A DNA stretch of 64,000 nt from Domibacillus indicus. Its GTDB lineage: Bacteria; Bacillota; Bacilli; Bacillales; Domibacillaceae. The notes below the pieces were generated by a model that searched no databases, had not been told where the DNA came from, and saw only the letters and a list, made by a program, of their open reading frames with translations. The stretch lies in NCBI RefSeq assembly GCF_000970685.1, contig NZ_LAJB01000003.1:496001-560000 (forward strand), written 5' to 3'. Position numbers and translations under genes: made by a program. Positions 1-52,506 of this stretch are shown one piece after another (the stretch's first letter is position 1; every line of letters begins with the position of its first letter).

Positions 1-303
1 CTGGCGGTTAAAGGTGAGGTGGCCGGAAATATGTTTGATTTCGAAGATAAAAATGATGGATGGGCAGATAACAATGGTGTCTATTTGAAAGTGGGTTACG
101 CCATTCGGGGATGGCAGGCGGATATCATGGAGAATACGGAATGATTCGTTCAGTTCAGACAAAAAATAATAAACTCGTTTTTCACCTTCCAGTCCGGCAA
201 CGCATCTTTGCAGCTCTTCTCTTACCCGGTTGTATTGCGGATCAGCCGGGCTCATTCTTTCATAGAGCACTTCTACTTTTTGATGCCATAATGACTTTTT
301 CAC
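1..303 (-). CDS. NERD-domain protein, N-terminal part (cut by window edge)
   Basis: A GTG start at 303, preceded by an AGGGAG ribosome binding site seven bases away, opens 101 codons that run off the left edge without a stop. The peptide begins MKKSLWHQK and contains GLEGEKR, HDIRLP, THFQIDTIVI and FEIKHISG. These match the start of a nuclease-related domain (NERD): a GxxGE motif, a QxD strand and an E-x-K strand, the restriction-endonuclease-like core. It is clearly paralogous to the protein at 17606-18535, which shares MKKS, HDIRLP, THFQ-DT-VI and KH-SG. The substrate and role of such NERD proteins in Bacillaceae are unknown. It lies next to a hairpin repeat (381-494), as its paralog does. 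Confidence 0.85.
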   Translation of the reverse strand, partial: MKKSLWHQKVEVLYERMSPADPQYNRVREELQRCVAGLEGEKRVYYFLSELNESFRILHDIRLPSPNGVTHFQIDTIVICPSIIFIFEIKHISGHLTFNRQ

Positions 304-380
304 TATTACACTCCCTTCAGCTTCCCCAGTTACTATTACACATTTTTTTCAAAATCCCTGCTTTTTTTGAAAAAAACTGG

Positions 381-494
381 CTTGCGGCGCGATCTGGGAA
401 AAATTCGGCGCAATTAGCAGCCGGGATGGCGCAATTTCAGGTAAATTGCGCCATCCTCATATGTTATTGCGCCATAAATTCCGGGAAATGCGCC
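381..494. repeat. Hairpin-rich repeat element D, beside the NERD gene
   Basis: The motif GGCGCAATT occurs twice in direct orientation (407, 429) and is then inverted as AATTGCGCC (444) and TATTGCGCC (465), with a weaker copy at 486. The central pair (425-437 and 443-455) forms a perfect 13-bp stem with a 5-base loop. The layout of direct copies followed by inverted copies, and the core GCAGCCGG, resemble repeat elements A-C (11625, 17455, 18623), but the repeated word differs. There is no U-tract, so it is not an ordinary terminator, although it lies after the gene ending at 523. Confidence 0.7.
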
Positions 495-11466: not shown

Positions 11467-11797
11467 CTCGGTTTTCTTTTTATTGTATGAAAGATTTGGG
11501 CCAAATACATTAACCCGCCATGCTCAATCTGGTTTGTTTTTTGACTCAGCTTGCTCTTTTGAAAGCATTTACTTTATTTATCATATCAATTTCAGTCAAT
11601 TTGGATATTGTTTTCCGCTGTTCCGGGGCGGTATTTTTTATTTTGGGGCGGTTTCCTGGCTGCTTGGGGCGGTATTTTTTATTTTGGGGCGGTTTCCTGG
11701 CTGCTTGGGGCGGTATTTTACTTTTCCGACCCTGGGAATCAAAATGCCGCCCTAAATTTGAGTTTTCCGGCCATAACTGCATAAAAACGCTCCGTTC
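11467..11797. other. Intergenic region between araC and the response regulator gene
   Basis: No gene is seen. The stretch contains the terminator of the two-component operon (11788-11813), repeat A (11625-11776) and about 150 bases next to araC that must hold its promoter. Apparent open frames here come from the tandem repeat. Confidence 0.7.
11625..11776. repeat. Hairpin repeat element A, orphan copy with tandem unit
   Basis: A 41-base unit beginning GGGGCGGTATTTT starts at 11625 and again, unchanged, at 11666. A third start at 11707 diverges and ends in the inverted copy AAAATGCCGCCC (11741-11752). Without the extra unit its length and order match copies B (17455) and C (18623). No NERD gene is adjacent. 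Confidence 0.88.
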
Positions 11798-17454: not shown

Positions 17455-17565
17455 GGGGCGGTATTTTTTCATTTTAAGGCGGTTTTCCGGCTGCCAGGGG
17501 CGGTATTTTATTTTTCCGGCCCTAACGATCGAAATACCGCCCCAAATTTCATTTTTCCGCCCATA
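17455..17565. repeat. Hairpin repeat element B, downstream of NERD gene 2
   Basis: GGGGCGGTATTTT occurs at 17455 and again near 17498, with a related GGCGG between them. It returns inverted as AAATACCGCCCC (about 17532-17543) and CCGCCC (about 17556). The core CCGGCTGCC lies between. It closely resembles copies A and C and lies 40 bases past the NERD stop, in the same orientation as copy C on the other side of the gene. Confidence 0.88.
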
Positions 17566-17605
17566 ACCATCTAAATTTTATTGCATCTCGAAATTCAGCC
17601 CTGTC

Positions 17606-18535
17606 TTACTCCCATTTCCATTCTTTCGGCAGCTGATACACTCTTCCCCTGGCTTCTCCTTCTTTTTGGACTGCCCACTTTCCCAATAATTTTTTCACAA
17701 CGGATGCCGACTCGATTCCGGTAAATGCCCGTATTTGTTTATTTACTGCCGCAGTGCCAAATAGTCTGACGTATTCTTTTAAGGCTGGAATATGCGGAGC
17801 TTTTAGAGGAGCGCTGCAGCCGAGGCATATCCATCTTCGCTGCACCCGCTTGACCCGCCAGCACTGGCAGGCTTCGCATTGGATTCCGGTTTGAAGGTGC
17901 TCCGGCTGAACATGGAACTTTTTCATAATATCAGGATCATACGGGCGGTGGTGGTGCTGGAGTTTGCTGGCAAGCTGGTGGACTTCCTGGCTGGATAAAA
18001 GGATGGGTCTGTCCCGGTGGAATTCGTCTAGTTTAGCGGGGATTTCCTGTGCATACATGATGAGCGATGCATCAAGGGCATCTGGCGGAGTAATTTCTAT
18101 GCGCACGTTCGGATGGGTAAGAGCGACGGCGGCCATAACGGGGACCCGGTGGCCAAGCCAGGCTTCAAGGCCTTTTTTCTGGCGTATTACCTGGGTAATA
18201 GGGTCATCATACATCGTGCTGCCTCTTATAAGCTGTCTGGTAGAACGGTCAAATATGAGGCGGCCGCTGAAATGTTTCGCGTCAATAACAATAATCATCT
18301 GTCGAGTAATGACGACGGTGTCCATTTGAAAGTGGGTGTAGCCTGTGGAGTACGGGAGGCGTATGTCATGAAGAACCCTGACTGTGCCTTCTAGTTCAGA
18401 TAAGTAATACAACAGCTTTCTTTCTCCTTCAAAGCCAGCTTCACAGCGGGCAAGCTCTTCCTTTACTTCTTTTCTCGGTACAATGAGGCGCTTATCAAGT
18501 GCCGCCAGCTTTGCATGCAGGATGGATTTTTTCAT
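17606..18535 (-). CDS. NERD-domain protein with C-terminal zinc ribbon
   Basis: The start is the ATG at 18535 behind a GGGAG site. The 309-residue protein carries a NERD domain at about residues 35-150: GFEGERK, HDIRLP, THFQMDTVVI, IDAKHFSG. The Glu, Asp and Asp-x-Lys residues form the nuclease-like core. A four-cysteine zinc ribbon follows at about 220-240 (CEACQCWRV and WICLGC). The last 60 residues (SASVVKKLLGKW) look like a winged helix-turn-helix. It is thus a possible DNA-binding nuclease, but no activity is proven for this type. Direct copies of one repeat lie on both sides (17455, 18623), and a paralog lies at the left edge. Confidence 0.88.
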   Translation of the reverse strand: MKKSILHAKLAALDKRLIVPRKEVKEELARCEAGFEGERKLLYYLSELEGTVRVLHDIRLPYSTGYTHFQMDTVVITRQMIIVIDAKHFSGRLIFDRSTRQLIRGSTMYDDPITQVIRQKKGLEAWLGHRVPVMAAVALTHPNVRIEITPPDALDASLIMYAQEIPAKLDEFHRDRPILLSSQEVHQLASKLQHHHRPYDPDIMKKFHVQPEHLQTGIQCEACQCWRVKRVQRRWICLGCSAPLKAPHIPALKEYVRLFGTAAVNKQIRAFTGIESASVVKKLLGKWAVQKEGEARGRVYQLPKEWKWE

Positions 18536-18622
18536 TGGCTTCTCTCCCTTCCCTCCAAGCATACAAGGTTTTTTCTTAAAAATCCTCGCATTTACAATAA
18601 TTTTACAAAAAGCGGATCATCC

Positions 18623-18735
18623 GGGGCGGTATTTTTCATTTTGAGACGGTTTCTTCTGTTCTTCGGGCGGTATATCACTTTTCCGCCCCTGGCCGCTGTC
18701 ATACCGTCCCAAATCCGGATTTACCGCCCGGGACC
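18623..18735. repeat. Hairpin repeat element C, upstream of NERD gene 2
   Basis: GGGGCGGTATTTT starts at 18623, GGGCGGTAT follows near 18665, and inverted ATACCGTCCC (about 18700) and TACCGCCCG (about 18722) close the element. It has the same order and length as B but is more diverged in sequence. It lies between the NERD start and the gnd terminator. Confidence 0.82.
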
Positions 18736-50959: not shown

Positions 50960-52273
<1,314 letters not shown>

Positions 52274-52278
52274 TTTTC

Positions 52279-52506
<228 letters not shown>

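Follow-up and report, generated by a model that had tools for sequence, protein, structure and literature searches.

The DNA analysed here, hereafter the window, is a stretch of 64,000 nucleotides from the genome of Domibacillus indicus. It contains a gene, designated NERD1, bracketed by two copies of a repeat, B and C, in the same orientation (Table 1). This arrangement had been reported in a preliminary description of the sequence, and both copies were found where that description had placed them. The half-sites of each copy had been described as following the order direct, direct, inverted, inverted. The succession of direct and then inverted half-sites was confirmed, but their number was not: each copy contains three half-sites in each orientation, six and not four. 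Judging from their translations, the neighbors of NERD1 are presumably gnd and a gene encoding a TRAP transporter.

A third copy of the repeat, A, contains five direct half-sites because of an internal 41-bp duplication. It immediately follows a gene readable as a two-component response regulator. Matches to GGGGCGGTATTTT with at most two mismatches were found 10 times in the window versus a mean of 2.0 in shuffled sequences (largest value of 7; 10 was reached by none of the 100 shuffles). The left edge of the window interrupts NERD2, another member of the NERD1 protein family, which is associated with an array of its own. The NERD2 array located at positions 386-494 had only two additional matches, both partial, in the whole genome at E < 0.001.

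Table 1. Position of NERD genes, protein domains, and repeat copies.
Feature	Position	Strand	Description
Repeat copy B	17455..17562	+	3' side of NERD1; six half-sites (consensus GGSCGGTA) 20-21 bp apart, 3 direct (starts 17456, 17477, 17498) and 3 inverted (17514, 17535, 17555)
Repeat copy C	18623..18730	+	5' side of NERD1, in the NERD/gnd interval; 3 direct half-sites (starts 18624, 18644, 18665) and 3 inverted (18681, 18702, 18722)
NERD1 gene, 318 aa	17606..18562	-	NERD nuclease domain, zinc ribbon, and C-terminal winged helix
NERD domain	18119..18436	-	Residues 43-148; E47, D81, and D94-x-K96 as PD-(D/E)XK-type residues
Zinc ribbon	17816..17878	-	C229, C232, C246, and C249, invariant in an alignment of 69 proteins
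Predicted winged helix	17633..17794	-	Residues ~257-310
Repeat copy A (B/C family)	11625..11772	+	No adjoining NERD gene; 5 direct and 3 inverted half-sites
NERD2, N-terminal part	1..321 (about)	-	Second gene of the NERD1 protein family; runs off the left edge of the window
NERD2 5' array	386..494	not assigned	Half-site GGCGCAAT, unlike that of NERD1; 3 direct and 3 inverted, the outermost two deviating
NERD2 3' partner array	contig C23:495253-495340		Outside the window

The NERD1 protein

NERD1 matched PF08378 (NERD) with a score of 65.2 bits (curated cut-off of 22.1; E = 9.5e-18), in agreement with the identity initially proposed for the gene. This was the only Pfam match of the protein at E ≤ 1. 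All 69 aligned relatives (69/69) also matched NERD PF08378 at E ≤ 0.01, and the Y1 (HUH) transposase was absent from the 13 families matched by these 69 proteins. Residues G46, D81, K96, C229, C232, C246, and C249 were invariant in the 69 proteins, and E47 was conserved in 90% or more of them. The four cysteines belong to the zinc ribbon. By reference to the PD-(D/E)XK fold, E47, D81, and D94-x-K96 are assigned as the catalytic E...D...(D/E)xK residues.

The AlphaFold2 model of NERD1 had a mean pLDDT of 94.9. The best fold match of residues 43-184 was VC1899 (Z of 9.1), and the other matches included Can2 (8.6), Hjc (7.3-7.6), McrC (7.5), and BstEII. Many of the top-ranking matches were PD-(D/E)XK nucleases, but Z values of 7-9 are also reached by common structural arrangements. 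The C-terminal 113 residues, modelled alone (pLDDT of 91.5), matched the winged helices of AntR (6.8), PefR (6.5), and Z-alpha (6.4). The fold matches are modest, the best Z values being 9.1 for the nuclease part and 6.8 for the C-terminal part, and they indicate no function.

Since NERD domains occur in defense proteins and the fold matches include Can2, McrC, and BstEII, the protein could belong to a device for defense or genome identity, in which the nuclease would attack foreign DNA and the host arrays would mark, titrate, or sequester the nuclease. A search for PADLOC models in the 69 members of the family returned weak matches to PglW in 18 proteins and matches to MAD6, far below the cut-off, in 54 proteins. 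NERD1 of the window matched no PADLOC model at E ≤ 0.001, and its neighbors were read as gnd and the TRAP transporter gene, both observations arguing against a defense role, which we consider quite unlikely.

Repeat copies in the D. indicus genome

A covariance model trained on 16 copies from the D. indicus genome (G000, 3.6 Mb) returned 63 strand-matches in this genome, corresponding to approximately 31 sites. The surroundings of 21 copies were read. Nine copies were located between tandem genes, six between convergent genes, and one between divergent genes. Four additional copies overlapped solely short, spurious-looking open reading frames, and the last one was located near a contig edge.

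Copies B and C fold better than shuffled sequences on either strand (z of -3.2 to -4.1). However, no covariation of the pairing was detected above that of shuffled columns across the 16 copies (82.5% of paired positions versus 83.3% in shuffled columns). Pairing in the absence of covariation indicates that the conserved feature is apparently the sequence and the spacing of the half-sites. An RNA structure was therefore rejected as the conserved feature, and the window contained no Rfam match at the gathering threshold. The repeat, initially described as a hairpin repeat, is better described as a phased array of half-sites than as a simple hairpin. The copies present in Domibacillus are nested inverted repeats, whereas arrays in other genera are often purely direct.

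Orthologs and paralogs in the genus Domibacillus

The best named relatives of NERD1 were found in Domibacillus tundrae, Domibacillus antri, and Domibacillus enclensis. An intact ortholog, with at least 61% identity, was present in 6 of the 13 genomes of the genus, including that of D. indicus, and the covariance model detected a repeat copy at most 100 bp away on both sides of all six genes. In the genomes of D. antri and D. enclensis, searches for the exact motif revealed no repeats, whereas the covariance model detected diverged copies. In genome G006, NERD1 is split and the model detected a copy on the 3' side only.

The genus contains seven additional intact genes of the family displaying 30-49% identity to NERD1. 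Six of these paralogs were flanked on both sides by repeats with other half-sites, as detected by the covariance model or by BLAST comparison of the two flanks. The half-sites were GGCGCAAT for L102, L103, and L106, GTGACCGGTAAA for L104, TTGCACGCT for L105, and AACGTGACC for L107. Inspection by eye revealed repeats solely on the 3' side of the seventh paralog (L108) and repeat remnants at a pseudogene (L109). No array was found at four shorter Domibacillus NERD genes lacking the C-terminal part. Contig C7 of genome G003 harbors, between 92 and 172 kb, four intact NERD genes, each with its own array motif, and a NERD fragment (G003:C7:125398), all within 80 kb.

Half-sites in Domibacillus track the lineage of the protein and not the genome. 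The genes associated with GGCGCAAT in G000, G003, and G009 formed a single clade (support of 99/98 in a tree of 24 proteins), and the four paralogs of G003 were associated with four different motifs. For a broader comparison of motifs and proteins, 69 of 90 loci had arrays. Based on a crude consensus and on pairs that are not independent, the mean number of motif matches was 2.7-2.9 for proteins with less than 50% identity, 3.2 at 50-60%, 4.75 at 60-70% (12 pairs), and 5.1 at 70% or more (17 pairs). The rank correlation over all pairs was weak (rho of 0.09) because most pairs are distant. In two other genera, arrays were found at 6 of 8 genes (g25, with sites such as TCGCTGATATA, TCGCGGATATA, and TCGCGGAA) and at 12 of 12 genes (g50).

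The 5' and 3' copies flanking NERD1 in one genome were more alike (76.9% on average, n = 8) than flanking copies from different genomes, whether located on the same side (63.5%, n = 42) or on opposite sides (62.6%, n = 41). This is an average, since in three of six genomes (G000, G005, and G004) a flanking copy resembled the best same-side copy from another genome more closely than it resembled its partner. Dispersed copies bear the half-site of their own genome, namely TAACGCCGATA in G003, GGCCGG in G002, G004, G005, and G006, and mostly GGGGCGG in G000 and G012, in a sample of one to three copies per genome picked by best model score.

Association of arrays with NERD genes across the order

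Of the 397 genomes sampled from the order, 287 contained relatives of the family, full length or not, at E ≤ 1e-15; these relatives occurred in 99 of 135 genera. The order is delimited here as in the search tool; its NCBI name is Caryophanales, formerly Bacillales, and its boundaries may differ. We analyzed 56 loci: 45 from outside the family of Domibacillus, with one locus per genus, and 11 from inside this family. The 45 order loci were the first listed stop-free match per genus, drawn from the 99 genera with matches, a choice that favors the best-scoring relatives, and the 11 own-family loci overlap loci inspected beforehand.

Exact 6-mer self-matches were counted in the masked flanks of the 56 loci as a function of lag. 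The spectrum peaked at lags 20, 21, 40, 41, and 42, with 9.6, 24.1, 7.9, 25.2, and 20.0 matches per kb, respectively. Lag 19 was at 1.3 per kb, a third rise began at 59-60, at the end of the range, and the remaining lags were at 0.04-0.75 per kb. The same lags peaked at about a tenth of these values for nearby control genes (1.8 at lag 20, 2.6 at lag 21, and 0.9-1.9 per kb at lags 40-42). The density of matches decreased with distance, from 27-44 per kb in the 300 bp next to the gene to 3-5 per kb beyond 1 kb.

An array was then scored when a 420-bp stretch contained at least five matches at lag 20 or 21. Arrays were present at 35 of the 45 order NERD genes, only on the 5' side in 19 cases, only on the 3' side in 9 cases, and on both sides in 7 cases. 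Thus, 42 of the 90 NERD flanks had an array versus 39 of 1495 control bins located more than 2 kb away (p ~5e-35). Application of the same rule to control lags 26/27 identified none of the 45 order NERD genes. At own-family loci, arrays were found at 6 of 11 genes versus 8 of 376 control bins. The enrichment of repeats beside NERD genes, which had been proposed as a check in the preliminary description, was observed. The association spans the order and is not peculiar to the locus present in the window. Flanks of L158, L160, and L180 showed that arrays can be long and direct, at times with an open reading frame across them; 19 units at exactly 20 bp were present inside the 420 bp examined at L158.

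The arrays could be operators, the NERD protein regulating its own gene and scattered genes without any part played by cutting or spreading. The 9 loci with an array only on the 3' side argue against pure operators, and purely 5' operators were rejected on this basis, although the 19 loci with an array only on the 5' side, the dispersal of copies between genes, and the resemblance of the modelled winged helix to MarR/ArsR regulators would fit this explanation. The location of the D. indicus copies in tandem, convergent, and divergent intervals (9, 6, and 1 of the 21 copies read) also counts against it, and the conservation of nuclease-type residues (D81 and K96 in 69/69 proteins) argues against a pure regulator. 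We consider regulation by operators unlikely.

Following masking of coding sequences, arrays were retained at 31 of the 45 NERD genes versus 25 of 434 control genes (p ~8e-23). This count drops arrays overrun by an open reading frame, such as those present at L158, L161, L164, and L180. The array rule was not satisfied at 10 of the 45 order loci, 5 of the 11 own-family loci, and 2 of the 8 loci of genus g25. The flanks of NERD1 in the window scored 0 and 2 (threshold of 5), and NERD1 of G012 and G003 also failed, indicating that the rule misses short diverged copies, which were detected by the covariance model at these three genes. The split gene of G006 (L101) was left out of all array counts.

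In a phylum-wide sample, arrays were found at none of 23 genes that encode only the NERD domain or are distant. In 22 of these genes, the match extends no further than the zinc ribbon; the remaining one, L291, matches over the full length but is distant. Four of the 23 loci are from Domibacillus, L291 is from the same order, and the others are from outside the order, mostly from other classes, so that taxonomy is confounded with domain make-up. Among full-length genes from the phylum-wide search, eight of nine had an array (at least five pairs); two of the nine (L263 and L286) had been inspected earlier. Strong full-length matches in this sample were found in the order and in one other genus of the class.

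These data bear on the possibility that the arrays are passive, i.e. that NERD genes happen to adjoin a hot spot or intergenic DNA prone to slippage. The enrichment observed after masking, the lack of arrays at the 23 NERD-only or distant genes, and the tracking of the protein lineage by the motif across Domibacillus genomes all argue against this possibility. Copies occupying the same site in two close species, G005 and G006, differ by the gain or loss of whole 19-21-bp units, as expected for slippage. Altogether, we regard passive arrays as highly improbable.

Turnover of sites and mobility

Comparison of G005 and G006 revealed that copies at two sites differ by the gain or loss of 19-21-bp units. 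The five sites compared in these genomes were occupied in both, as established directly for three and by alignment for two. At the L293 site, G012 harbors a repeat between two genes, whereas inspection by eye of the same gene pair in G004 revealed a terminator-like hairpin and no repeat. In G000, G005, and G006, only the left side of this site matched, and the next 320 bp contained no repeat. Only one of seven G012 sites not associated with NERD genes was common to the G000 copies compared. The left side of L302 matched a repeat-free place in G000, based on one flank only. These differences in units, together with the empty site, indicate that sites and units turn over and that NERD-flanking arrays persist. 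Clean insertion with target duplication was observed at none of the compared sites, and inspection by eye of the flanks of 21 copies revealed no target-site duplication of the kind left by an insertion sequence or MITE.

Another dispersed repeat, of approximately 130 bp (AATAAGAAAAGCG...GCAGCTGGACA), is located at about 52173-52300 in the window and at about 660-792 in L293. It had no Rfam match at the gathering threshold and had further matches in G000, G005, and G006.

The covariance model returned 17-83 strand-matches per genome where NERD1 is present (seven genomes, counting G006 with its split gene) versus 0-21 where it is absent (six genomes; one-sided p = 0.006), a contrast that is weak because the model was derived from G000 copies, one of the six genomes is 77% complete, and the species are related. 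GGCC-type copies are kept in the absence of NERD1 in G009 and G010, and copies are also kept in G007 although the sole family member found there is broken. In random stretches, arrays were found 4 times in 334 kb of NERD-plus genomes versus once in 370 kb of NERD-minus genomes, numbers too small to decide.

A mobile unit comprising the gene and its repeats was not supported, since NERD1 stays beside gnd at the loci with neighbors read. The preliminary description had regarded two findings as incompatible with its reading, an unchanged site in relatives and a random scatter of copies. The former applies in part, since NERD1 keeps its gnd neighbor, and scatter without enrichment at NERD genes was not observed. 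Carriage as plasmid or phage cargo was also rejected: a search of 72,556 plasmid records returned a single weak match (24% identity over 58% of the query), and there were no phage matches.

Discussion

The gene family and its lineage-specific repeats suggest an undescribed pair comprising a protein and its target site. We consider it likely that the NERD gene and the bracketing repeats form one functional pair, in which a nuclease-like protein would bind DNA in a sequence-specific manner and the array would provide its recognition sites. In our reading, NERD1 would be a nuclease that binds DNA at arrays of cognate sites, acting like a REP/RAYT pair and yet unrelated to it. Binding of the half-sites by the protein appears quite probable, and cleavage of DNA appears rather probable, with less confidence than binding.

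Each half-site, ~8-9 bp in length, probably corresponds to a single recognition site. With a spacing of 20-21 bp between units, close to two helical turns, neighboring sites face the same side of the helix, where protein molecules could line up next to each other. The arrays adjoin the gene on the 5' side, the 3' side, or both, with Domibacillus copies also scattered between genes, and the specificity of the protein and its sites may drift together. In plasmid iterons, direct repeats approximately two helical turns apart are located beside the gene of a winged-helix Rep protein. By sequence analogy, the NERD arrays would be similar in adjoining the gene of a presumed winged-helix binding protein. 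They differ from iterons in being chromosomal, in their association with often several genes per genome and with a nuclease-type domain, and in the existence of dispersed copies.

The preliminary description had likened the locus to RAYT transposases and REP sequences. The pattern holds with respect to flanks of the gene's own repeat family, dispersal of copies between genes, and tracking of the protein lineage by the repeat; the repeats, however, are phased arrays and not simple hairpins, and a mobile unit was not supported. According to two reports (PMC3116915; PMC8266576), REP/REPIN sequences and RAYT (TnpA-REP) transposases, together termed 'REPtrons', have a similar organization: the gene is chromosomal and has members of its own repeat family on its flanks, other copies are dispersed outside genes, inverted pairs occur, a genome can contain several families, each located next to a gene of its own, and protein and repeat co-evolve. 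RAYT is a HUH (Y1) transposase, in contrast to the NERD protein with its zinc ribbon and winged helix, and the arrays reported here consist of half-sites phased by 20-21 bp that are purely direct in many other genera.

By analogy with these systems, cutting followed by copy repair might allow the pair to spread or homogenize its copies instead of serving the host, a possibility that we regard as doubtful. Extended to the order, the same analogy leads to a tentative proposal: an undescribed module in which a winged-helix NERD nuclease would cut at or near its own phased arrays, repair copying, homogenizing, and spreading these arrays. Such a module might, equally tentatively, be considered as a 'REPtron' with a restriction-like nuclease in place of the transposase, the arrays of Domibacillus having become dispersed 3+3 palindromic elements.

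Most of the sampled relatives, in a family detected in 287 of 397 genomes of the order, appear to have a DNA target beside the gene. If the pairing proposed here is correct, this uncharacterized nuclease family would provide ready-made pairs of proteins and sites, their natural co-variation would give access to a code for winged-helix specificity, and the family would explain one type of dispersed repeat located between genes in relatives of Bacillus. If the nuclease does spread its own sites, REP/RAYT-like repeats, selfish or domesticated, would have originated a second time, independently.

In agreement with the preliminary description, which knew of no NERD-repeat unit, we found no description of NERD genes with repeat arrays in the open-access papers searched, including parts of PMC10910872, PMC12802215, PMC3116915, PMC6563490, and PMC8266576. 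The bcr-type repeats of the Bacillus cereus group are likewise short, dispersed, and intergenic, in Bacillus relatives. In the parts consulted of a study of non-CRISPR hypervariable interspersed repeat arrays (PMC10910872), nucleic-acid enzymes similarly adjoin regularly spaced arrays. The NERD unit differs by its length of 20-21 bp, of which ~8-9 bp are constant, and no such NERD-array system is described in those parts, where a figure legend lists NERD as a putative CRISPR auxiliary gene. At a guess, array finders might take short phased arrays for CRISPR arrays.
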